The translations under genes were made by a program, and so were the position numbers. Below are positions 43,117-64,000 of a DNA stretch of 64,000 nt, piece by piece; the stretch's first letter is position 1; every line of letters begins with the position of its first letter. Under the pieces are notes generated by a model. The model was given only the letters and a program-made list of their open reading frames with translations. It was not told where the DNA came from and did not search any database. Source of the DNA: Tritrichomonas foetus (taxonomy: Eukaryota; Parabasalia; Tritrichomonadida; Tritrichomonadidae); the NCBI GenBank assembly GCA_001839685.1, contig MLAK01000567.1, positions 40,355 to 104,354 on the forward strand, in the 5' to 3' direction.

Positions 43117-43578
43117 TTATATAATTGTCAAAATATTAGAATCATCTTCCAGAAATGTTAAAGTTGTGTCATCAAAAAAAGGCATTTCCAAATCATTTAC
43201 ACAGTCTTCTTCCAGATTTTTGTAAAAAAATTCATCATTCCATTCATCCAATGATTGGTTTGAAGATTTAGAACTGTGTTTTCTCTTACTTGAATCACTC
43301 GATTCAGACAATTGTTCCAAACAAGAAATAATGGCCTTACCTATTCGTTCGTCGTCTTTGTTCACATCAAGATTTTGTTGATTGTCTGTTGAATTTCCCG
43401 TTTCTTTATGTAAAATTAAATCTAATTGTTCAATTAACAATTCCAAATTTCGAGGTCTGCTCTTCGGGAATTTCGACGTCAGTTGCCCAATCTCGTTTAA
43501 ATTGAAAATAGCTGAAACACTTCCATCATCTTCGACAACTGATATTTTCTTCCATTTGGATTCCTTCCTGATTTTCAT
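43117..43578 (-). CDS. Acidic protein, unknown
   Basis: A 153-residue protein I do not recognise. The first 45 residues are basic, with a possible short strand region (KISVVEDDGSVSAIFNLNE). The middle (80-115) is Ser/Lys-rich with SSDSSKRKHSSKSSNQS. The last 40 residues are acidic and hydrophobic (DEFFYKNLEEDCVNDLEM and FFDDTTLTFLEDDSN), resembling an activation domain or a protein-binding tail. No domain is assigned. It starts at MKIRKESKW, and the next ATG is far inside. Confidence 0.5.
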   Translation of the reverse strand: MKIRKESKWKKISVVEDDGSVSAIFNLNEIGQLTSKFPKSRPRNLELLIEQLDLILHKETGNSTDNQQNLDVNKDDERIGKAIISCLEQLSESSDSSKRKHSSKSSNQSLDEWNDEFFYKNLEEDCVNDLEMPFFDDTTLTFLEDDSNILTII

Positions 43579-43736: not shown

Positions 43737-44848
43737 ATTGTTTAAGATGTATACAAACCAAATAGTCTTAACGTACGAAATCACTAAAATGATCCTTATC
43801 ATCAGTATTACTTAATACCATCAGTCAAAAATCAAAACCCAAATAGCTAAAAGAATGACGAAAATTTCCCTTATCGCAAACTTCGCAAATGGTCGAATTC
43901 ACAAATATTTCGAAAATGATTCTGAAGAAGCTATTGTTTCAGTTTTCGGGTGAACAGCTTTCAGTCAATTGTTAAATCTATATTTTATAGTTATGAGCCA
44001 TATTTATTCATAGTTTTGAAATTTTGCAACAATTAAACCGAAAAAAGAGCGATTTTGGAGGAAGCCTAAAAAAAAATTGAGAGAAGCTTTTTTTCCAAGA
44101 ATCATAAAGATTATAACACTGCTTCCCATAATTCTATTTACACTTCTTCTATCGATTTTTAATTAAAAATCGCGAAAATTTTGATAGTTTTAACTCAGTG
44201 ATGGTGAATTAATTCAATTTCCATTTGACAAATATGAATGTATTGAAATCTTTTCTGTCATAAAATTTTAGTATATGAAGAAAATAGACTGGCAGTCCTC
44301 AACAGCACATTCTCAAGCAGGGATACAGATACAACGATTGAAAGACCAAATCAAGAAAAATGGAATCCAATATGTTTTTTTCCAGACTCAATGCCAAGTG
44401 AATTTTCTGATGACTCGCCAATTAGATGGCAAAACATTCGTAATCTTCTCATTGATGCCTAAATTTTTTTTATTTATATCAAAATTATTAATATTTTTTT
44501 TATACTTCATTTTTGTATTTTGGAAAACATTATAATTTTCGATGGAGGGTCATATGATAATAAAAAGCACGATTTATGATAAGAAATAATCAAGATATTA
44601 ATGCTATAAAATCACTTTTTATCTCAATAATTCTCAGAAATTTCTGTTGGGTTTATTTTTTTCTCACAATTTTTTTTTGGATTTGGTTTTCTCTGTATCT
44701 TGATTATTAAATTATAATATTTATATATTATTAATAGGATTACAATTAAATAATATTTAGATGACAATAATATCAACAATTATTCATTTAGATCTCTCAA
44801 TAGTCTTCTACATCTAGAGCTAGTTAGTTTGTATACATCTATTGTTTA
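43737..44848. mobile_element. Transposon copy A, 1096 bp, 8-bp target duplication
   Basis: The element runs 43745-44840 and starts AGATGTATACAAAC, ending in the reverse complement GTTTGTATACATCT. These 14-bp perfect terminal inverted repeats continue imperfectly to about 21 bp. It is flanked by a perfect 8-bp direct repeat ATTGTTTA at 43737-43744 and 44841-44848, which is a target-site duplication. A near-identical copy lies in reverse orientation at 53947-55043. An 86-codon frame is inside. An 8-bp duplication occurs with hAT, Merlin, P and some Mutator-like elements; the termini do not decide which. With only short frames, it is probably non-autonomous. Confidence 0.92.
44275..44535 (+). 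CDS. 86-residue ORF inside transposon copy A
   Basis: The frame encodes a soluble half (MKKIDWQSSTAHSQAGIQI and QRLKDQIKKNGIQYVFFQT) followed by MTRQLDGKTFVIFSLMP and a hydrophobic end (FFLFISKLLIFFLYFIFVFW) that could span a membrane. The copy in element B has the same length, differing at two residues (Q/R and N/T). It may be a relic of a transposase N-terminus. I recognise no catalytic motif. Whether it is expressed is unknown. Confidence 0.35.
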   Translation: MKKIDWQSSTAHSQAGIQIQRLKDQIKKNGIQYVFFQTQCQVNFLMTRQLDGKTFVIFSLMPKFFLFISKLLIFFLYFIFVFWKTL

Positions 44849-46395
44849 CCTAAATATCCAGCGTTTATTCAATGAACACCAAATAATTTCACTCAAGTTT
44901 GAATTTACATGGAATTATCTATGAATAAAACGCTTTTTGAAGACGAGATGAAAAAGATAAAAAAAAGTTCGCTATTTAAATATGGAATTAACTTTGAAAA
45001 AATTTCGAAATAATGAAGTCTTCCAAGAGACCTGAAGAATTTACGGTTTGCACGTGTATTGTAGCTAGGTTCTCCATGATCTCATAATCAAATAGCCATC
45101 AACTTTTTCAAAAGAAATTAGTATTTTGTCCATTCAATTTTAATCAGCTCACTCAGAAATTCTGATCCTCTTTATTTCAATTTTTTTTTCCCCTGACGTC
45201 ATCACTCGAATTCTTTATCATGTTCTCTCAACTCTTCAGCAAGACATCAATTAAATCCAATTCCAAACGGTTTCAGCCTGTTATTCTATAGAATTCGCAC
45301 GATTCGATGTTCCAATGAATTATCTATTTCGTTTTCCCGATCTTCGAGGTTCAAAGTAAATATTCATATTTGTTGTGCATTTAGAAATCTGGATGTGAAA
45401 TCTAACTTCCGAGATTTCAAAGTTGATTATCGAAAATGAATGTTATTTCATAGAATCAGATGTTTGACTTTGAGAATGAAGAAGAATTCGATTTTGTTCT
45501 CATCATTAATTCAATAATTGATCATAATATTTCATTAATTGGGTAACAATTTCCTTTTGGAGAAAAGTTTCTTGTTTATGATTGCAATTAATCTATTATC
45601 AAAATAATTACTAAATCTAACTAATGTAATATTTTTTTGATTATATTCTCATCAGAATTATGAAAATTAGAATTATATATTATTCTAATTATATTCGAAA
45701 CCAAAATCTTGATCATTGATTAATATGATGAGATATTTTTCACCAATATAATCCATTTGGAAGAATCGTTGATTAATTTCTTGGTTTCTAAAGATTTTAC
45801 TTTTAAGTCAGTGTTGCCGTTAACATCGAAGGTCAAATAAAACGTCAAATTATAGAAAAGTGTTCATGGTTAAACATTATAATTAGTCAAATCTGTCTTT
45901 CGAAACATAACTTTTTGTGTGTCATATTTTAACAAATTAACTTTTTGATAGATTATTAGTCTTGGTAAATAAATGCCAAGTTCTGGAAAAATTCGCCCTA
46001 AAAAATGAATGACAAAAAGTCAAAACATTTTTAAAAAATCTGCATGGCTATTTTCACTGCGTGCTATTTGCCTTGTCAGTTTGATTGTATTTAAATTCGA
46101 AATAAATAAAATTAAAAAACATTCCTAATAATTTCCATTTTATCGAATAATAACTTTAACTGTTTGACTTGGCAGAATCTTGTTCTAAACTATGTTAATA
46201 AATTCTCGAGAAAAATATCAAGAGAGTTGAGGGGAAATATTTCAGTTTATTCAGTTTATTCAATGTTTATTCGGTCATTTGCATTTTTAGTCTGACTTCA
46301 TAATTCTACCAAAATAACAGTGATCGAAAGAACGTTTATTAAAAAATGTCAAAACTTTTTAAAATAAAGCATTGAAAAGTTACAAGCAATTACAA
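44849..46395. other. Long intergenic gap, no gene seen
   Basis: About 1.5 kb of A+T-rich DNA between transposon A and the pecanex gene. I find no supported open frame, RNA gene or array. Confidence 0.5.
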
Positions 46396-49300
46396 ATGTT
46401 CGATATATCTTCCACCTTTTTTACTACAGTGACGTCGGGCCTCGTGTTTAGCCATAATTGGAAAATAAACATCATTCGAATAACTGTTTATTTATCATTA
46501 GTCGCGATTTTTTTAATACCATATTTAATCGATTTAAATCAAACAGGAAAAATATTTTTTACATTAGGAATAAGTGGCTTCATTTTTTTGATCAAGTTTT
46601 TTCTATATTTAATGAACAAACTCGTCGATAAATCGATCGAAGTTTCATCATCATCAGCAAACAGAAAACCACTAGTTAATGACGATAGACCACCCAGCAT
46701 TCCCGGTCCTTTATGGGATCGACGATTTGATTACATAAATGGTCGAGGTTTGACAAATGATGATGTGATTAATTTAATGACATCAGGTTTTGATCCTGAT
46801 GCTGTTTTTGAATTTCATAGAATTATGCAAAACAGTGATTTTTTGTTCAGACAATCAATCGCAGAATCACCTAATTCTTCAATTCCAGAATCAAAAAACT
46901 TTATAAAAATATGCGGTCATTTAATTCCACTCCCCTTTCATAGAAAAACAATTAATTCAATTTTTCCTGCAAATGAATCACTCCTTTATGTGATTTTAGC
47001 GACTATATTTTCATGCATTATGAGCTTTGCAGTTTCAAATACAAAAAATTATGCTTGTTGGGTTTTTGGGCCAGCAATTTATTCACTTTTACATCCTTTG
47101 GAAACTGATCCATATTCAACAACAAGAGGTGATATTTATTCAGGTACTACTCGTTCTTTCTATGTTTCTTTAGTTCTTGGAATTCAAGCATTTTTTAAAT
47201 ATTTAGCTGAAAATGTTATTCATACGAAATCCGAATATTTTCATGTAAATATTGACTGGGTTTACATTTTTGATCTTTTGAATCCTTATTTGAATTATTC
47301 TTTGTATTTATTACCTATTTTAATTCTGTTTTTCGTTGGCCATCCGATGACGATAACCTCATGGATTTTCGAATTTGGTGGAAGATACCTTTTTGGACTT
47401 GGTGGATCGACTGGAATAATTCATTCCATCCTTCAATTTTTAAAATCAGTCATAATTGCATCTATTAACGGCATAATCCTCAATGTTCTATTTCACAAGA
47501 ACCAACAATCCAATAATTCTCTTGCTGAAAATGAAATTTTGAGTAGATTTGATTTAAAATGTATCGGCGTTTGTATTTGTATTGGAATTTCAACTTTATT
47601 AATACAGATTCCAATTTCTTATCAAAATCAACTTCGTCAAGAAGCGATTAAATTTATTATTTCTATCATAATAATTTCCATTATATCTGTATCTTTTGCT
47701 TTTATTGGTGCTTTAGTTGATTATCATATAGTTTCAATTGTTTGCTGTTCACTTTCTTTATTGTTCGATATTTTATGGCCATATACTAGTTCAAATAATG
47801 GATATATACTTTTCCATTTTCGCTGTTTTAGTCATACAAGCAAAATTGTTAACATTTTAAGATTAATTACCCCATCAATTTTAGCACCAATGCTTATTTC
47901 TTCTCTTACTGTTTCAGATAAAGATGCACCACTTGCTTTTATTTCTATTTTGATTGTTTGTTGTATTAATCGCTCGTTTATAGAGAGTCATATTTTTGCA
48001 ATTTCTTTGTTAATGTTTGTTTTATTTGATAGATTTGAATTTTATATGATTTCGTCTCGTTCGCATTTATTGTTTTTATTATTTATTAGTTTATGTATTT
48101 CTAGAAAGTTGTTTTCTTCACTCCCTATTTTAGATTATTATCGTCGTATCCGTCCACAAGTCCTATGTGATATTGAATTAGGTGAAATAATTTGGAATTT
48201 TGTTTGTGGATTTTTCTGGAATTATCTTCCTGGGCCTGACAGATCTCTTCATTTCCCTTCTGTTATATTTAGTTTGATTACCGGTTCTCCTATTAATTCA
48301 CCTGGATTAATCACTTTTTTATGTTATCCTTCTGCACCACGTCCAAATTATTTTTGGGAATTGAATAATGGACAAAGTATCGATCCTAAAACCTCATTTA
48401 CTGCTAGATTAACAGAGCATCCAATTGAAACACCTGTATATAATTCCGCAACGCGTGCTCTTTCTTTAACTTTATCCCCATTGATAAAAAGCGGAAGACT
48501 TGGAATTGTTGACAGTAATGATATTTTCCTATTTAAAAATGATACAATGGCAGCTTTTGTTCATATTGTTGCTTGTGAACCACATTGTGTGAAATTTCAA
48601 CTGCGTGGACTTGAATATACAAGTGAAACAACTTGTCATCGTGGTGAAATTTCCTCAATCCAAAGAGTCATTGATGATTACACATTATTTCCTAATATTT
48701 TAGCTAAATCTATATTTTATACCACAAATTGGGAGATTAGAGCCATTAATGTTCCTTTTCAAATTTATGCAGCTTCTAATATCACTCTTGAACGAGCTTT
48801 TATGACTTTAGACAATGAAATGTCACTTGAATGGGCAACAATCGCTTTTGCTTATATATGCACTAAAAAAAGTCAATATATCAACACCAACTATATACCT
48901 CTCAACACAAATAATACTCCCAACACAACCAGTAATAATGGAAATGATGTTCTGAATCAGGCTTTGGTATTTGAAGATACGATAAATGAAGATAATATCG
49001 GTGAATTTAGTCAATTGAATATTGATATACAATATAAACAATTATTTTATGATTGCTTGTCAATGTTTGGCGGATTTAATGATCCAAATTTATACAATAG
49101 AGCGTCTCTTCTCTGGTCAATGCTTTATCATTCTTTATTTTTTGAAAATGGCGATTTAGACTTAATTAATTTAATTCATTTATTTAATGAAGAAAAAAAT
49201 CTTGTTGAAGTTCATTCTCAACAGTTTTCAGGTGACCAGCCATTCATTTCACAATTAATTCGATTTGGTCCACAAGAAAATGAACAAACATTAATTTATA

Positions 49301-49788
49301 AAGCTGTTAGATTTGCTACCCTCTTATTTCTAATGGCTGCAAATGGAATATCGCCTAATGGAATTATTTCTGATAGAGCTAATGAAGGTGAAGTTGTTTC
49401 TTTTGTAAAAGAAATGGATGAAGAGTATACCGAAGCTCCAATAAATTCTAAAAAATTCGCACAAAAATTCCAAGAAGAAAAGAAAGATTTAATCACTATC
49501 ATTTCTAGAGATGGTTTACAAACAAGTATATTGAATTTCCAGCTTACTACTAATAGTTGGAATGTTTTTGCAATTCAAAGAGAATCGGTAAGATCATTTT
49601 GGGCAAGTGAAGCATTTTCTCAATTGTTTTTTAATGAAAATTCTAGTGAAAGAAGAAGTATTCAAATGGATGATCACTTTTTGCATAACTTGATTGTGCA
49701 ATCGTGTAACATCCCAATCGGATATCCTGCGCTTGTGAGCCCTATCCTCACATCGTATGCTGTACCTCCTTCCTTACAAATGTTTTAA
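46396..49788 (+). CDS. Pecanex-like multi-pass membrane protein
   Basis: A 1130-residue protein with at least ten hydrophobic segments in the first 650 residues. The C-terminal domain matches the Pecanex_C family: FWASEAFSQLFFNEN, ERRSIQMDDHFLHNLIVQSC, then IPIGYPALVSPILTS, the counterpart of 'NER-SIQ---LRN---QA-D-P-GYPVYVSP'. The N-terminus also begins pecanex-style, with a hydrophilic MFDISSTFF opening before the first membrane helix. Pecanex proteins localise to the ER or Golgi, and in flies and other animals act in Notch signalling and ER stress; the molecular activity is not settled. The frame reaches a TTG at 46372, but the first ATG is at 46396. Animal pecanex is about 2000-3400 residues, so this is a compact version. 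Confidence 0.82.
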   Translation: MFDISSTFFTTVTSGLVFSHNWKINIIRITVYLSLVAIFLIPYLIDLNQTGKIFFTLGISGFIFLIKFFLYLMNKLVDKSIEVSSSSANRKPLVNDDRPPSIPGPLWDRRFDYINGRGLTNDDVINLMTSGFDPDAVFEFHRIMQNSDFLFRQSIAESPNSSIPESKNFIKICGHLIPLPFHRKTINSIFPANESLLYVILATIFSCIMSFAVSNTKNYACWVFGPAIYSLLHPLETDPYSTTRGDIYSGTTRSFYVSLVLGIQAFFKYLAENVIHTKSEYFHVNIDWVYIFDLLNPYLNYSLYLLPILILFFVGHPMTITSWIFEFGGRYLFGLGGSTGIIHSILQFLKSVIIASINGIILNVLFHKNQQSNNSLAENEILSRFDLKCIGVCICIGISTLLIQIPISYQNQLRQEAIKFIISIIIISIISVSFAFIGALVDYHIVSIVCCSLSLLFDILWPYTSSNNGYILFHFRCFSHTSKIVNILRLITPSILAPMLISSLTVSDKDAPLAFISILIVCCINRSFIESHIFAISLLMFVLFDRFEFYMISSRSHLLFLLFISLCISRKLFSSLPILDYYRRIRPQVLCDIELGEIIWNFVCGFFWNYLPGPDRSLHFPSVIFSLITGSPINSPGLITFLCYPSAPRPNYFWELNNGQSIDPKTSFTARLTEHPIETPVYNSATRALSLTLSPLIKSGRLGIVDSNDIFLFKNDTMAAFVHIVACEPHCVKFQLRGLEYTSETTCHRGEISSIQRVIDDYTLFPNILAKSIFYTTNWEIRAINVPFQIYAASNITLERAFMTLDNEMSLEWATIAFAYICTKKSQYINTNYIPLNTNNTPNTTSNNGNDVLNQALVFEDTINEDNIGEFSQLNIDIQYKQLFYDCLSMFGGFNDPNLYNRASLLWSMLYHSLFFENGDLDLINLIHLFNEEKNLVEVHSQQFSGDQPFISQLIRFGPQENEQTLIYKAVRFATLLFLMAANGISPNGIISDRANEGEVVSFVKEMDEEYTEAPINSKKFAQKFQEEKKDLITIISRDGLQTSILNFQLTTNSWNVFAIQRESVRSFWASEAFSQLFFNENSSERRSIQMDDHFLHNLIVQSCNIPIGYPALVSPILTSYAVPPSLQMF

Positions 49789-50246
49789 ATATAGAATAGT
49801 TCGAACTTTGACGTTTTAATTTCATTCCTATTTTTGCTTTTTTATTTCATATATGATTACATGTATATTTTTTTATATGTTATAGTACTTCGAATCCAAC
49901 TGTTAACTGATTTCGAAACAAAATTAATGAATCTTTGACATGTTATATGAAAATATTTTATCCTCTGATGTTATAAGTTTTATTCTTTTTCGTCTTGGTT
50001 ATTGTATTACTCATTGAGGAATTGTTAACACGTAGATAAAATTATTTTTGTCTTTTCAATGAATTTGAGCGATGAATGTTCAAAATTTAAGTGAGAGTTT
50101 GTTTGTGAGATGATGATTATGATTTAATTTCTCATCAGACGTTTTGAGATTATGGATAGAATTTTTTAAATGATTTTATAATTATTTTATTGAAAACATT
50201 TCAATTTGATCTCATTTTTTGAATCTGTTCTAAATTTATTTGTGAG
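49789..50246. other. Intergenic gap, no gene seen
   Basis: About 460 bases between two plus-strand genes, A+T-rich. No gene is seen. The bZIP promoter lies in its 3' half. Confidence 0.5.
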
Positions 50247-50975
50247 ATGAATATGATGCAAACATTCATCATTTCACATCACAACCAAATGCAAACCACG
50301 AAACTAATTCCTCTGATTCCAAATGTTGATTTCCAAAGAACTCAAATTGAAAACGATTTCATCAAACAACTGCCGCCAATAAGGAGATATAAAAACTTCA
50401 ACATGGTAACGAATGCGAATAATTTAAAAGTTCAACAAACTTTTTCGAATAAGTCAGGATTTTATATTGATATACCATGCAACTATATTCCAAATGTAAA
50501 ACCGCATCATTTTCCACTTCCAGAGATGCCTTTTGTTAGCTCTTCTCAGCAAAATGATAATATGCATTCAAAAAGTGGAAATACTTTCACCATCAATAGT
50601 GTCGCCATCAATAACTCAACCAATAACCCAATTCTAAGACAGGGAAACTACCCAATAGTAAACACTAATATCAACACAAGTTATAATACAGAAATGGATC
50701 TCGATTCAAAAAAAGATATTCATGATAATGCCGAAAATGATGAGGTTGAGAAAAAAGATTATAAAGAAAGAAACAGAATTGCAGCACAGAAATGGAGAAA
50801 AAAGAAAGATGCGTATTTAATGAATCTTGAAAATGAAAATGATCAACTTCGTCAAGAAGCTTTGAAGTTATGCAACCAAACAAATTCATTGAAAATAGAA
50901 AATAGCTTTTTAGAAAAAGAGCTACAATTCTTTCAGATGTTCATTGCAACTGTTATGAAAACTCCTAAAGAATAA
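50247..50975 (+). CDS. bZIP transcription factor
   Basis: A 242-residue protein whose last 75 residues form a bZIP domain. The basic region ERNRIAAQKWRKKKDAYL has the family signature N-x7-R (N in NRIAAQKWR), used for contacts with DNA. A zipper follows, with heptad leucines in LENENDQLRQEALKL, then SLKIENSFLEKELQFF. The basic region lacks the typical AA-x-(S/C)-R core and carries AAQKWR, so the DNA preference is probably not classic AP-1. The N-terminal 160 residues are polar and Asn-rich (GNTFTINSVAINNSTNN), likely disordered and perhaps an activation region. An acidic patch (DDHDNAENDEVEK-like) sits just before the basic region. A nuclear location is implied. Confidence 0.85.
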   Translation: MNMMQTFIISHHNQMQTTKLIPLIPNVDFQRTQIENDFIKQLPPIRRYKNFNMVTNANNLKVQQTFSNKSGFYIDIPCNYIPNVKPHHFPLPEMPFVSSSQQNDNMHSKSGNTFTINSVAINNSTNNPILRQGNYPIVNTNINTSYNTEMDLDSKKDIHDNAENDEVEKKDYKERNRIAAQKWRKKKDAYLMNLENENDQLRQEALKLCNQTNSLKIENSFLEKELQFFQMFIATVMKTPKE

Positions 50976-51322
50976 ATCATTTAAAGTGAAATTAATCAAA
51001 CAATGTTTACAGTGTGAATAAATATATAATAATCATGTTAAATCAAAATTATGTTAAATAAAATCATGTTAAATAAAATCATGTTAAATCAAAATCATGT
51101 TCAATCAAATCATGTTAAATAAAATCATGTTAAATCAAAATTATGTTAAATAAAAATATGTTCAATCAAATCATGTTAAATAAAATCATGTTAAATAAAA
51201 TCATGTTAAATCAAAATTATGTTAAATCAAAAATATGTTAAATAAAAATCATGTTAAATAAAAATTATGTTAAATAAATATAGGCTTTATTAACCAAATA
51301 TTCTGATACTTTGAAGTATTTC
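50976..51322. other. Convergent intergenic gap, mostly tandem repeat
   Basis: Spacer between converging bZIP and aminotransferase genes, most of it the 15-16 bp repeat array listed separately. Confidence 0.6.
51031..51278. repeat. 15-16 bp tandem repeat array, 16 units
   Basis: Sixteen copies of ATGTT(A/C)AAT, spaced by AAAATC or AAAAT (units such as ATCATGTTAAATAAA). Spacing is mildly irregular (15-16 bp). It lies in the 3'-3' gap of two converging genes, like the 25-bp array at 12826. Confidence 0.85.
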
Positions 51323-52525
51323 TTATTTCTTGATATTTTTAATTGTTTCGGCATATGCAGCTTTAAAAACTGGAACGGCCTTTAATATTTGATCTGGTGG
51401 TTTGCAATATGAGAGTCTGAAGAATCCTGGTGCTTTGAATCCAGTTCCTGGAACGACAATAACCATATGATCTGCCATTGTATTACAAAAGTCCCATTCA
51501 TCAATTCCTTCAGGAATCTGTGGGAATATATAAAATGCACCTTCTGGTTTCACATATTTAATTCCACATTCATCCAACATTTTCATGATGATTTCTCGTG
51601 ATTCATTATAGAGCTCTATATGAGATGTAGCTGGCATTACCTTAGGTAAAATTCTCATATGAAGACGATTAGCATGAACAAATCCCATAATTTCATTTGC
51701 ATGAGCTAAAGAATGAACCAGAAGACCAACATTCTCCAATAGTGGGTTTGCAATCATACATCCAAATCTCTCTCCTGGAACTGATAAATCTTTAGAGATT
51801 GAGTAGCAAACAATACTGAATGGATATGATTTGAAGATTTGATGGCATTTCACACCTTTATCAACGACACGAACATAAACATCATCAGAAAGGATGTAAA
51901 TTGGTCTTCCATATTCAGAGGATTTCCTTTTGAGAACTTCTGCCATCTCATCAATGCATTTTTGAGTGAAAACAACACCAGTTGGATTGTGAGGAGAATT
52001 TATGATAACCGCACGTGTTAATGGATTTATGGCTTCTTCAAGCTTTTGAGCATTGATTTGCCATCCTTCTTCAAATGAAGTATGAACTTCTTTGACAACT
52101 CCGTGGAAATTTTCCACATAGAAAGGATATTCCAAAAAGTATGGTGTGAATAATACAACTTCATCACCAACATTGAGAATTACTCTCAATGCCACATTCA
52201 TTGCACCTGCACAACCTGATGTTAAAACAATATGTTCAGGACCAACGGGAATTTCTTGAATCTTTGTGAACATTTCCGCAAGACATTTTCTTGGAGCAAG
52301 ATCACCAACAGTTGAAGAGTAACCATGACATAATGGTACTTCTTCGGCAGCTACTTCTCGAAGAGCTTGAAAGTATTCTTCAGGTGGCGGGACTCGTGGA
52401 TTTCCAATTGAAAAGTTGTGAACTGCATCTAGACCAAATTCTTCAACTAATTTATCAGCTCTATCAGACATCTTTCGAATTAAAGATCCCCCACTGGAGC
52501 ATGCGAGCATATATGGTGATAACAT
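51323..52525 (-). CDS. PLP-dependent aminotransferase, class I, bacterial type
   Basis: A 400-residue fold-type I aminotransferase, likely aspartate/alanine or aromatic type; the exact substrate cannot be told. Seen are HNFSIGNPRVPPPEEY (N-terminal), SGCAGAMNVAL (cofactor phosphate loop), INSPHNPTGV (the conserved Asn-Pro and the Asn that holds the pyridine ring), SDDVYV (Asp and Tyr), and SISKDLSVPGERFG, where the Lys forms the Schiff base. Near the end comes GAFYIFPQIP and GTGFKAPGFFRLSYC, with the Arg that binds the substrate carboxylate. The whole sequence is strongly like the clostridial family (SLGNPNVPAPEE, YSKSLSLPGERIG). It lacks an N-terminal hydrogenosomal extension (it begins MLSPYMLACSSGG). 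A promoter-like TCACTTCATTT lies at 52533-52543 upstream. Confidence 0.9.
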   Translation of the reverse strand: MLSPYMLACSSGGSLIRKMSDRADKLVEEFGLDAVHNFSIGNPRVPPPEEYFQALREVAAEEVPLCHGYSSTVGDLAPRKCLAEMFTKIQEIPVGPEHIVLTSGCAGAMNVALRVILNVGDEVVLFTPYFLEYPFYVENFHGVVKEVHTSFEEGWQINAQKLEEAINPLTRAVIINSPHNPTGVVFTQKCIDEMAEVLKRKSSEYGRPIYILSDDVYVRVVDKGVKCHQIFKSYPFSIVCYSISKDLSVPGERFGCMIANPLLENVGLLVHSLAHANEIMGFVHANRLHMRILPKVMPATSHIELYNESREIIMKMLDECGIKYVKPEGAFYIFPQIPEGIDEWDFCNTMADHMVIVVPGTGFKAPGFFRLSYCKPPDQILKAVPVFKAAYAETIKNIKK

Positions 52526-53936
52526 TGTTGCTAAATGAAGTGATGTTCATCGTTTTATTCAAAAAAAGAAACATCAAAGTAAAAATTCAATGAAATTCAA
52601 TATTCAGAAACTATTCAATTGATTGATATCATGGTTTTTACTGAGCATCGGCCTTGTCCAAAAGTGAGAAATTGCAAATAAATGAAGAAAAATTTTCTTT
52701 GTAATAAAATAATGAAATGTGAAAAAATGTTAAAGATTAGAAAAAAAATAATATCATCGTTTTAAAAAAGGGTCGAGTTTAGTCTAGAAAGTTGAGAAAT
52801 GTTCGATATTTTATTCATTTTTGTTGAATGTTATATGAATTTAGCGAAACGTACATTTGAACATCACTGATCGAAAATGAATCAGATAAATTGGCAAAAA
52901 AGAAGTCGAAATCCTCCAATAATTATAGCAAATTCATTGTTTGTTCTGACCAAATGACGACTTTGGCCATTTTAAAGCAAAAAGGAAATCAATATTATTA
53001 TCACAGAAGAATTGAATTTAATATCTCATTTGATTACATATGATTATATATTTTTGATAAATATTTATTTGAATGCATCTCGGGGCGTTTCGAAAATGAT
53101 ATGTTTTTTTTTACAAATAAAAATGAAAGCTTCTAGAGGCTTTATTTTTGCCATTTACCACCTGCACGAAAATGAGATATCTAAAAAAATGGATTAAGTC
53201 GATATTTTTCTCAAACTAGACTGGCAATGAATTGCCAAATATTACCCATTTTTTAACGACCGATTAATCATAGAATTTCCATTTCACTCATCTCTGAAAA
53301 TGAAGTCAAATATTCGTAACTGTAAGAATTAACAATAAATTGCGTCTTGGCATGACAACAAAATAACAATAGGAAGATTTTTTGGTAGATATAAATGAAT
53401 TTCAACCGAATATAAACTACTCAAAAAACTCAAAAAAAAGTGAACTGAAAAAATTAGATCCTGACATCAGAGATAAGATTGTTTCAGATAGAATTCTTAT
53501 GAAAAAACAATTCAGGATAAATGACTTTAAAGTGAAATGAAAAAACTTTTTAAATAATTATTAGAAATTCACTCAAAATGAAATATTCAATATTGAATTA
53601 CACATAGAATAAATTTGCACAAACTTTGTCTATTTCATTAAGAATTTTTGAAATGATTATATACAATATTAAATTCCATTATTCAATTTCGCCTAAATAT
53701 CCAATATGAAATGATGCAAATTCGAGATCTATGATGAATTTCTTCCAATCTACATAATTTCTATTCATTTAATTTTTGATTTATTATTTATTTATGATTT
53801 TGATTTCCCAATATATCATCAAAAACACTAATAAATGAATAACAAAAAAAGTTGAATATCTCTTCAGAAAAAAATAATATAAATTATTCAAAAAACCAAA
53901 TTATCTCATTTTTCAAAGGTCTATATTCAAATAATG
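52526..53936. other. Intergenic gap up to transposon B, no gene seen
   Basis: About 1.4 kb. Open frames in this stretch begin at TTG or are short, and none is accepted. The aminotransferase promoter lies at its start. Confidence 0.5.
52533..52543 (-). promoter_or_regulatory. Initiator-like motif of the aminotransferase gene
   Basis: On the minus strand, TCACTTCATTT lies 7 to 17 bases before the ATG at 52525 and fits the trichomonad initiator pattern. Confidence 0.45.
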
Positions 53937-53938
53937 AT

Positions 53939-55051
53939 GACTCTACAGATGTATACAAACTAACTAGCTCTAGATGTAGAAGACTATTGAGAGATCTAAA
54001 TGAATAATTGTTGATATTATTGTCATCTAAATATTATTTAATTGTAATCCTATTAATAATATATAAATATTATAATTTAATAATCAAGATACAGAGAAAA
54101 CCAAATCCAAAAAAAAATTGTGAGAAAAAAATAAACCCAACAGAAATTTCTGAGAATTATTGAGATAAAAAGTGATTTTATAGCATTAATATCTTGATTA
54201 TTTCTTATCATAAATCGAGCTTTTTATTATCATATGACCCTCCATCGAAAATTATAATGTTTTCCAAAATACAAAAATGAAGTATAAAAAAAATATTAAT
54301 AATTTTGATATAAATAAAAAAAATTTAGGCATCAATGAGAAGATTACGAATGTTTTGCCATCTAATTGGCGAGTCATCAGAAAAGTCACTTGGCATCGAG
54401 TCTGGAAAAAAACATATTGGATTCCATTTTTCTTGATTTGGTCTTTCAATCGTTGTATCTGTATACCTGCTTGAGAATGTGCTGTTGAGGACTGCCAGTC
54501 TATTTTCTTCATATACTAAAATTTTATGACAGAAAAGATTTCAATACATTCATATTTGTCAAATGGAAATTGAATTAATTCACCATCACTGAGTTAAAAC
54601 TATCAAAATTTTCGCGATTTTTAATTAAAAATCGATAGAAGAAGTGTAAATAGAATTATGGGAAGCAGTGTTATAATCTTTATGATTCTTGGAAAAAAAG
54701 CTTCTCACAATTTTTTTTTTAGGCTTTCTCCAAAATCGCTCTTTTTTCGGTTTAATTGTTGCAAAATTTCAAAACTATGAATAAATATGGCTCATAACTA
54801 TAAAATATAGATTTAACAATTGACTGAAAGCTGTTCACCCGAAAACTGAAACAATAGCTTCTTCAGAATCATTTTCGAAATATTTGTGAATTCGACCATT
54901 TGCGAAGTTTGCGATAAGGGAAATTTTCGTCATTCTTTTAGCTATTTGGGTTTTGATTTTTGACTGATGGTATTAAGTAATACTGATGATAAGGATCATT
55001 TGAGTGATTTCGTACGTTAAGACTATTTGGTTTGTATACATCTGACTCTAC
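53939..55051. mobile_element. Transposon copy B, 1097 bp, inverted relative to copy A
   Basis: The element runs 53947-55043. Its left end, AGATGTATACAAACTAAC, is the reverse complement of copy A's right end, and its right end GTTTGTATACATCT is the complement of copy A's left end, so it is inserted in the opposite orientation. The flanking 8-bp direct repeat GACTCTAC is at 53939-53946 and 55044-55051. Length differs from copy A by one base, and the few base differences seen by eye show that the copies are recent. The two insertions have different target duplications, so each arrived by its own transposition. Confidence 0.92.
54252..54512 (-). CDS. 86-residue ORF inside transposon copy B
   Basis: Same frame and length as the ORF in copy A, on the minus strand. 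Two differences are visible: FFQTRCQVTF in place of FFQTQCQVNF. It starts with an ATG at 54512. Function is unknown; it may be a relic of the transposase. Confidence 0.35.
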   Translation of the reverse strand: MKKIDWQSSTAHSQAGIQIQRLKDQIKKNGIQYVFFQTRCQVTFLMTRQLDGKTFVIFSLMPKFFLFISKLLIFFLYFIFVFWKTL

Positions 55052-61586: not shown

Positions 61587-63734
61587 ATGGGAAAACTCGA
61601 TTTCTTCTTACACCCACAATCCATTGCCATCATTGGAGCTTCCGCTATTGAAGGCAAAGTTGGAAACGCAGTCCTCAAAAACATAATTAAAAGCGAATAC
61701 CAAGGAATTATTTATCCGATAAATCCAAAGCCAGGAACCATTATGGGGCTCGATAGTTACAAATCTGTTGAAGATGTTCCAGGACCAATCGATGTTGCTG
61801 TCATTTGCATTCCTGCGAGCATCGTCAATCGCGCCGCTGAAGAATGCGGAAGGAAAGGCGTAAGAGGCATCGTAATTGTTGCAGCAGGATTCAAGGAAGT
61901 TGGCGGAAAAGGAATTGAACTCGAAAACGAACTCATTCAAATATGCAAAAAATATAATATGCGATGTGTTGGCCCAAATGTTCTTGGAAATATTACAACA
62001 GCTGCAAACATGTCATTTTCTGCCAAAACACCCATGCGCGGAAAAGTTGCGATGTTGTCTCAATCGGGCGCAATGATGACAGCAGTTTTGGACTGGGCCG
62101 ATACTCAGAAAATTGGGTTCTCTCATTTCATATCACTTGGCAACAAATGTGATGTTGACGAGGTCGATTTTGTTGAAGAAATAGCTGATGATCCAGACAC
62201 ATCAATTCTTATTCTATATCTTGAATCTGTTTCTGACGGAAAGAAGTTTTTTGATGTTGTTTCAAAAGCAACAAAAAAGAAACCTGTTGTAATTTTAAAG
62301 TCTGGAATTTCACCAGCTGGTAAAGAAGCAGCTTCATCACATACAGGCGCACTTGCAGGTGATGATATTGCATTCGATATTGCCTTCGAAAGGTGCGGAG
62401 TTATTCGTGCAAAGACAATGAAAGAATTATTCGATCTTTCTAATCTCTTTGATAAAGTTAAATTACCACTTGGTGAAAAATTTGCAATTCTGACAAATGC
62501 AGGTGGACCTGGAATTATCGCTACAGATACATTCGAACAATTCAATATTGAATTTGCAAAATTCACTGATGAAACAACTGAAAAATTAAGAGCAACTCTA
62601 CCAGCTGAAGCATCAGTCAAGAATCCTGTTGATATTGTCGGCGATGCCCGTCCAAAGCGTTTTGGTGAAGCTTTAAGCGCAATTTTCCAAGAATCAAGCG
62701 ATATTTGTGCTGGTGCACTAGTTTTGGTTACTCCACAATCAACAACTGATCCAACAGCAGTTGCTGACACTCTTGTTGCAATTCATAAACAATATCCTGA
62801 TAGACTTATGTTAACAACTTTCATTGGTGGAGAAACAATGCAAGTTCCAAGACGAATTGTTGAATCGCATGGAATTCCAGCTTATTCATTCCCTGAGCCA
62901 GCAATTCGTTCATTACGCGCTTTAATTGACTATAAGAGATATATTCGTGAAAGTGAACAAGATCCAAATCATGAAAATGTAAATAACAAAGTTATTAGGT
63001 TTGAAGTTGATGATAAAAGAATTGATGAAATCATTGAAAAGGCGAAAGCTGAAAATCGAAGAATGTTACTTCCTTATGAAACTTCGGAAATTTGTTCAAT
63101 GTATGGCCTTCCTGTTCCAGCTTCAAGGCTTGCAGAAACAAAAGAAAGTGTTTCAAGAATATGCGAAGAAGTTGGATTTCCAATCATTATGAAAATTGCC
63201 TCACCTGAAATTCAACATAAAACTGATTGTGGTGGGGTTAGGCCAAACATTAATAGTGTTGAAGAAGCTGAAGAAGCCTTCACTGAAATTCTAAATAATG
63301 TTGCTGAAAAAGGACCAAAAGGTGCCAAAATTGCAGGCGTGGAAATCCAAAAAATGGTTGATTCAAGTAAGGCTTCAAAGAAAACCGAAATTATTGTTGG
63401 CATGTCTAAAGATCCACAATGGGGGCCAATGCTTATGGTTGGTGCTGGTGGAATTTACGCAAATTACATGAAAGATGTTTCTTTCGAACTTGCACGCGAA
63501 TATACAAAAGATTTAGCTCTTAAACAACTCAGTGCAACAAAAGTTTACCAAATTTTAGAAGGAGTTCGTGGTGAGAAGCCATCAGAAATAAACATTCTTC
63601 TTGAGACCATGATGAAAGTTGCACAACTTGTTAGAGATCATAATAACATTGATGAAATGGATATGAATCCGATTTGGGTCTTTGCTGAAGGCGAAGGAGT
63701 TGTTGCACTTGATGTGAAGATAATGGTAAGTTAG
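61587..63734 (+). CDS. Acetate--CoA ligase (ADP-forming), fused alpha-beta
   Basis: A 715-residue enzyme that converts acetyl-CoA, ADP and phosphate to acetate, CoA and ATP; it is an energy-conserving step of anaerobic fermentation known in Giardia, Entamoeba, archaea and many bacteria. The N-terminal CoA-binding domain (about 1-125) starts FFLHPQSIAIIGAS and contains GIIYPINPKPGTIMGL. The succinyl-CoA-synthetase-like ligase domains follow; the phosphohistidine lies in SSHTGALAGDD (His252). The C-terminal ATP-grasp domain (about 480-715) has FPIIMKIASPEIQHKTDCGGV, IVGMSKDPQWGPMLMVGAGG, MDMNPIW and ends GVVALDVKIMVS, close to the family end 'VVALDAR-V-'. It looks complete. Alpha and beta parts are fused in one chain. 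The product is cytosolic, with no targeting signal. A lateral origin is likely. Confidence 0.93.
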   Translation: MGKLDFFLHPQSIAIIGASAIEGKVGNAVLKNIIKSEYQGIIYPINPKPGTIMGLDSYKSVEDVPGPIDVAVICIPASIVNRAAEECGRKGVRGIVIVAAGFKEVGGKGIELENELIQICKKYNMRCVGPNVLGNITTAANMSFSAKTPMRGKVAMLSQSGAMMTAVLDWADTQKIGFSHFISLGNKCDVDEVDFVEEIADDPDTSILILYLESVSDGKKFFDVVSKATKKKPVVILKSGISPAGKEAASSHTGALAGDDIAFDIAFERCGVIRAKTMKELFDLSNLFDKVKLPLGEKFAILTNAGGPGIIATDTFEQFNIEFAKFTDETTEKLRATLPAEASVKNPVDIVGDARPKRFGEALSAIFQESSDICAGALVLVTPQSTTDPTAVADTLVAIHKQYPDRLMLTTFIGGETMQVPRRIVESHGIPAYSFPEPAIRSLRALIDYKRYIRESEQDPNHENVNNKVIRFEVDDKRIDEIIEKAKAENRRMLLPYETSEICSMYGLPVPASRLAETKESVSRICEEVGFPIIMKIASPEIQHKTDCGGVRPNINSVEEAEEAFTEILNNVAEKGPKGAKIAGVEIQKMVDSSKASKKTEIIVGMSKDPQWGPMLMVGAGGIYANYMKDVSFELAREYTKDLALKQLSATKVYQILEGVRGEKPSEINILLETMMKVAQLVRDHNNIDEMDMNPIWVFAEGEGVVALDVKIMVS

Positions 63735-64000
63735 TAATAGTAGTAAGTGGATTTGGTACCTACTGAAAATAATAAAACTTTTTGAAATCACTAGTTCACG
63801 ATAGAGAGATATATGTCGTATTATANANNNNAACTTTATGAANGCANTAATGAGCAAAAACAGAACAACAGAAACGAAAACTAAAACCATTCAAAACCGA
63901 AAACATATAGAACGACCCCCACCACTGACATCAAAAATTTTTCATTAATGATTTCATTTATGAGTAATAGTAAGAAGTGGAAGTGGTACCTACTGAAAAT
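63733..64000 (+). repeat. Direct repeat pair and low-quality bases at the window end
   Basis: A 38-base sequence at 63733-63770 (GTAATAG to TGGTACC and TACTGAAAAT) recurs at 63963-64000 with a few changes, a period of 230 bases. Between them lie single N calls at 63826, 63828-63831, 63843 and 63847. The first copy starts right after the acetate-CoA ligase stop. Either a tandem repeat starts here or this is an assembly artefact near a contig end. Confidence 0.6.

Follow-up and report, generated by a model that had tools for sequence, protein, structure and literature searches.

P elements in other genomes and the family in the window

P elements are a classic invader of flies and, to our knowledge, thinly documented outside animals. 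In Drosophila, repair of the donor gap raises the copy number of the P element and faulty repair yields deletions; the Drosophila ends presumably start with CA and differ in sequence from those described here. The present analysis concerns two short elements, copies A and B, in a 64,000-nucleotide stretch of the Tritrichomonas foetus genome (GenBank assembly GCA_001839685.1, contig MLAK01000567.1, positions 40,355 to 104,354 of the forward strand; the whole stretch is called the window), which are very probably internally deleted, non-autonomous P-superfamily DNA transposons with a transposase supplied in trans.

Drosophila P, KP, and Har-P likewise have 8-bp duplications, internal deletions that spare both ends, and movement in trans; Har-P (~630 bp) is described as retaining ~130 bp at its 5′ end and ~500 bp at its 3′ end and as seemingly unlikely to be translated (PMC6917496). 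The window family differs from Drosophila P in that no THAP finger was found, one deletion joint recurs at 443 sites, and no intact source was found. Zebrafish Pdre2 has, as here, terminal repeats (13 bp), 8-bp duplications, and internally deleted copies, in its case beside full-length ones; in contrast, its ends (CATACCTGTCAAC) start with CATACC whereas those of the window family start with AGATGT, its transposase is a THAP9-type protein, and its 12-bp subterminal repeats have no identified counterpart in the window family (PMC10983969). Outside animals, P-N1_MLP and P-N2_MLP from the rust Melampsora (Repbase) are described as non-autonomous P elements with 8-bp duplications (PMC3164196). These two are fungal, and the likeness is drawn from their description. 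Judged by its name, P.1N1 of Trichomonas vaginalis is a P-superfamily repeat in a parabasalid, and we take the N1 suffix to denote a non-autonomous family under the Repbase convention. It is listed with 164 genome copies, 82 of them expressed (PMC7845603); the genus is apparently a different one, and the likeness to the window family is by name and not by sequence comparison.

Since P.1N1 is found in T. vaginalis, P-superfamily repeats were already known in parabasalids, and the window family is a further family of a superfamily known from fish, a rust fungus, flies, and a parabasalid. The T. foetus genome paper makes no mention of P element, superfamily, hAT, Maverick, or Mutator, and the literature on P elements in Tritrichomonas and Trichomonas, covered in part and without Repbase, yielded no account of the window family.

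Ends, target duplications, and a shared deletion joint

Copies A and B had been described in an earlier note by their coordinates, shared 14-bp ends, different perfect 8-bp flanks, and opposite orientation, all of which held upon re-reading of the sequence and alignment. Both open with AGATGTATACAAAC and close with its complement (perfect over 14 bp; a 21-bp version is imperfect, 90% complementary), and, aligned in opposite orientation, they are 99.27% identical across 1,097 columns. In the window, whose guanine-cytosine (GC) content is 26–39% in 2-kb steps, the exact 14-mer occurs four times, always at the termini of A and B; allowing up to 2 mismatches gave five matches versus a mean of 0.78 in shuffles. 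Self-comparison of the window revealed no match between the A and B regions beyond the elements. The features of both copies are:

43745-44840, + strand (transposase orientation): copy A, 1,096 bp, class I, read as an internally deleted P-type transposon; ends, arms, and deletion joint common to other copies
43737-43744: left target-site duplication of copy A, 8 bp, ATTGTTTA, exactly repeated at 44841-44848
44841-44848: right target-site duplication of copy A, 8 bp, equal to the left flank
43745-43758, + strand: 5′ terminal inverted repeat of copy A, type 1a, 14 bp, perfect
44827-44840, - strand: 3′ terminal inverted repeat of copy A, type 1b, 14 bp
44153-44172, no strand: perfect palindrome of 20 bp in the copy A leader
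44275-44535, + strand: residual 86-codon frame of copy A, transposase codons 1-28 (coiled-coil-like start), then out of frame past the deletion joint
44344-44368, + strand: 25-mer spanning the class I deletion joint of copy A (C177:84698-84722)
44355-44358: GAAA, the 4-bp microhomology at the copy A joint
44361-44462, + strand: remnant of the transposase C-terminus in copy A, WNPICFFPDSMPSEF...NLLIDA and stop, in another frame than the 86-codon remnant
53947-55043, - strand: copy B, 1,097 bp, class I, inverted relative to copy A
53939-53946: left target-site duplication of copy B, 8 bp, GACTCTAC
55044-55051: right target-site duplication of copy B, 8 bp
53947-53960, + strand: terminal inverted repeat of copy B, type 1b, 14 bp
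55030-55043, - strand: terminal inverted repeat of copy B, type 1a, 14 bp
54419-54443: deletion joint 25-mer of copy B (C177:94773-94797)

In translation, the first 28 residues of the copy A frame are those of longer copies. Neither window copy is able to encode a whole transposase; the internal frames are short, as previously noted, and among them are the start and the end of a transposase gene that has lost its middle. One end of copy B lies ~110 bp upstream of the first ATG (55154) of a protein-kinase frame.

Genome searches were performed against an assembly of 63.7 Mb in 1,064 contigs, in which the window sits on contig C177. This would be less than half of the T. foetus genome, with repeats the likeliest part to be absent; a long-read assembly comprises 148 Mb at 30.75% GC (PMC11415386) and the draft of strain K 68.5 Mb (PMC12428144). 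The GC content of the window and the size of the searched assembly are consistent with T. foetus. The exact 14-mer was found at 544 forward and 545 reverse sites, compared to 0 for its reversed control. Among the first 100 of these 1,089 sites, 78 formed 39 convergent pairs (35 of them spanning 1,066–1,103 bp) and 22 were single. Target duplications were scored in a sample of 56 distinct elements with both ends exact, 53 of them with N-free flanks; this sample is non-random, i.e., drawn from first-listed sites and searches with coding pieces, and includes a few composites. An exact duplication was present in 48 of the 53 (8 bp in 45, 9 bp in 3), versus agreement in 1 of 2,756 pairings of left and right flanks from different elements. 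Further 14-bp end pairs with 8-bp duplications, for which a genome check had been proposed earlier, were found. Target sites are AT-rich and have no strict motif. At one end of element L014 (~287-328), three 14-bp end repeats stand in tandem, one of them altered at a single base, which looks like a duplicated terminus. In locus L091 (60-1212), 46 bp separate two elements. Their left flanks (AAATAACT and AGTTATTT) are mutually reverse-complementary and their right flanks are unmatched, perhaps through an inversion or a paired-end insertion.

The 25-mer across the class I joint occurs at 443 assembled sites, composites counted (control 0), and, read against the longer copy on contig C546, the joint lies at a common GAAA; a joint identical at all these sites suggests a single founder. 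For divergence estimates, 51 of the 56 elements were orientable (L010, L017, L028, L031, and L059 were left out; L017 and L028 are short copies), and the comparison took in 20 short copies and 25 of 1.25–1.26 kb, leaving out the remaining six. The 20 short copies are 98.17–99.91% identical (mean 99.14), and A and B are the two farthest from the majority among them (1.09 and 1.19%). Other deletion classes sit between identical ends. The 1.26-kb class retains the N-terminal region: with the N-terminal query, the match covered at least 115 of 192 bases in 23 of 40 scored candidates (of 496) and just 36 in the remaining 17, and the 20 copies fetched with this region have one of each end apiece (19 of 1,255–1,260 bp; L031 of 1,567 bp). 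The 1.25-kb class retains the C-terminal 95 residues, with its joint at a common TCTCAAGC; of 150 sites scored with the C-terminal query, 8 matched all 95 residues and 12 at least 75.

Transposase remains and the assignment to the P superfamily

The longer C546 copy, which has the same arms, contains a reading frame that matches the Pfam families Tnp_P_element and TNP-like_RNaseH_N. PF12017, the P-type helix-turn-helix, was matched at an E-value of 2.7e-6 (28.1 bits, cut-off 23) and PF21787, the N-terminal half of the P-type RNase H, narrowly at 24.8 bits (cut-off 24.6), and a scan of the genome with PF21787 gave a single match, C546, which lies above cut-off. The core of a metagenomic relative is predicted to fold like the Drosophila P transposase, with a split RNase H and an inserted domain. 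The Pfam matches of C546 together with this modeled fold narrow the superfamily to P, whereas the earlier note had read the 8-bp duplication as that of hAT, P, Merlin, or Mutator-like elements; the other three are disfavoured, the Mutator-like elements being set aside because the coding remains match P families. The earlier proposal that A and B are non-autonomous and served by a transposase coded elsewhere is supported, and a longer relative would supply the enzyme in trans. The larger relative for which a search had been suggested exists in the C546 copy, which has the same arms and a P-type frame and is damaged.

Several observations weigh against this assignment. The fold result comes from a metagenomic relative and not from the window family's own protein, the first structure model, of another relative (P0005), was poor (predicted local distance difference test score, pLDDT, 44.5) and its matches were unused, and sequence profiles of the relatives recovered no P transposase from the PDB. 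The Pfam matches are modest overall, and among 11 relatives at E ≤ 0.05, PF12017 was matched in 4 and PF21787 in 3, all below cut-off. No intact transposase bounded by the window's ends was found in the assembly; 1 of 34 matches (52 candidates scored) spans the query, and this body copy, C546, is interrupted by internal stops, carries a deletion, and is damaged at one end. A search of the assembly with the joined flanks of A and B gave self-matches only and no empty site, five of the 53 elements have no exact 8-bp duplication (L010, L039 with 6 bp, L042, L056, and L091), and the 14-bp end is shared by a second element, type-2.

The second half of the RNase H core is absent from the C546 copy, the sole body copy found. 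The THAP family was absent at E ≤ 1 from the Pfam matches of the C546 pieces (minus the first 44 codons) and of 10 relatives, several of them partial, and no C2CH pattern was found in the six frames of copy A, the six frames of the 1.4-kb C546 leader-to-body stretch, or P0001–P0005. P0126–P0130 carried alignment gaps in the C2CH scan, and their THAP verdict is that of Pfam only. The element ends start with AG, without the CA start of the canonical THAP-bearing P element/THAP9 lineage.

Distant P-like frames, the longest in an open stretch of 4,044 codons, occur elsewhere in the genome, and exact ends of either kind were absent from the four stretches fetched. The distant P-like transposase frames at L093, L094, and L096 (up to ~730 codons in the fetched stretches) point to several P-type lineages in the genome.

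The proposed course of events starts from a once-complete ancestor with the same ends, which would have encoded a P-like transposase with an N-terminal coiled-coil-like region, a helix-turn-helix, and an RNase H core split by an inserted domain. Nearly the whole gene would then have been lost in an internal deletion at the 4-bp microhomology, which spared both ends and left a longer relative to provide the transposase in trans. This enzyme would pair the ends, excise the element, and reinsert it with an 8-bp stagger, i.e., by cut-and-paste. Copies could be gained where the donor gap is repaired from another copy, as it often may be, and interrupted or switched gap repair may have produced the deletion and composite classes.

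Composite elements and rival explanations

The type-2 element has its 14-bp end in common with type-1, the family of A and B, and a different internal sequence. Exact 28-bp type-2 ends occur 45 times in the assembly, and the 40 candidates scored in the type-2 search (of 134) each reached 99–100%. Contigs C48, C379, C390, and C443 carry a type-2 end at bases 25-52, which suggests that assembly breaks coincide with these elements. Units of type-2 and type-1 of about 1.9–2.0 kb were found at L009, L097, L098, and L090. In L097, both are fused with loss of the inner ends, and the 1,999-bp unit is flanked by an 8-bp duplication (GAAAAAAA); its joint (998-1028) has 17 identical occurrences in the assembly. 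L009 and L098 have 8-bp duplications outside the whole unit and N runs inside, the joint of L009 being hidden by its N run, while the type-1 part of L098 retains an exact inner 14-mer, so that this fusion differs from that of L097. The L097-type joint adjoins a class I deletion in L097 and a class III deletion in L090, which indicates that joint and deletions recombined. At C345 (L086), type-1, a zinc-finger-like frame, and type-2 are joined in one chimeric element that carries the duplication ATCTAAAC. The frame (L086 2981-3541; 187 residues) has no convincing Pfam family and 3 weaker relatives in the genome.

As candidates for an autonomous copy, L010 (C55, 3.1 kb; two 1b ends round an N run, duplication absent) and L009 (C39, 2.0 kb; the type-2/type-1 unit with an N run) were rejected, as was the zinc-finger-like frame as a second transposase, with four genome sites of which the other three have no such ends nearby.

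These findings bear on a rival reading, that the P-like gene is only an old passenger and present mobility depends on the transposase of the type-2 element, which has the same 14-bp end and adjoins the zinc-finger-like frame in C345. We consider this unlikely. The 45 type-2 ends, the 17 identical fusion joints, the 8-bp duplications round L009, L097, and L098, and that of the C345 chimera speak for it; however, the zinc-finger-like frame lies at only 4 genome sites (7 candidates scored), the three outside C345 have no 14-bp end at up to 3 mismatches within the fetched stretches, Pfam gives no transposase call for it, and a P-like enzyme could equally serve both end types. That the copies are non-autonomous hAT elements is very improbable. 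A hAT transposase likewise gives 8-bp duplications and would move the ends in trans; in the recovered pieces, none of them a complete element, Pfam matched no hAT family. Merlin elements, with duplications of 8–9 bp and a reported presence in Metamonada, fit by duplication length and are scarcely credible, as they are reported to have ends of 24–462 bp with terminal 5′-GG and to be confined, among Metamonada, to Preaxostyla (PMC8101967), whereas the family's ends, 14 bp long (21 bp imperfect), start with AG and its coding remains are P-like. A segmental inverted duplication in place of two transpositions, to which high identity and opposite orientation would be suited, can be dismissed, as the identity ends at the 14-bp termini with no further match between the regions, a separate perfect 8-bp duplication flanks each copy, and the genome has hundreds of other copies.

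Beyond the assignment of A and B to deleted P elements, a broader reading is possible, which we hold tentatively and somewhat short of even: that the P elements of trichomonads are a branch that lacks THAP and has its ends recognised without this finger, and that two different elements lying adjacent can fuse, lose their inner ends, and spread as a macro-transposon, with parts reshuffled by gap repair or recombination. One fusion joint seen 17 times and combined with two or more distinct internal deletions suggests that fused and deleted parts keep reshuffling.

Elsewhere in the window, a small frame (43117-43578, - strand) has a sub-threshold match to Tad5 (21.1 bits, cut-off 27), probably by chance, and a 38-bp direct repeat (63733-63770 and 63963-64000, 89% identical) lies at the right edge. 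Among the 120 of 345 matches listed for the calreticulin-family protein of the window, the best named relative is from Tritrichomonas musculus (70%), and T. foetus is represented only by two divergent relatives at 43% and 38%, which would be expected if the window protein is itself the T. foetus copy.

Significance for the family and its host

In this assembly, copies of one deletion derivative are far more numerous than any remains of the parent element, and with class I copies diverged by ~1%, the spread of the derivative looks recent. Class I insertions could be used as markers of insertion differences between isolates, and the relatives offer material for studying how ends are located by a P-type transposase that lacks a THAP finger.
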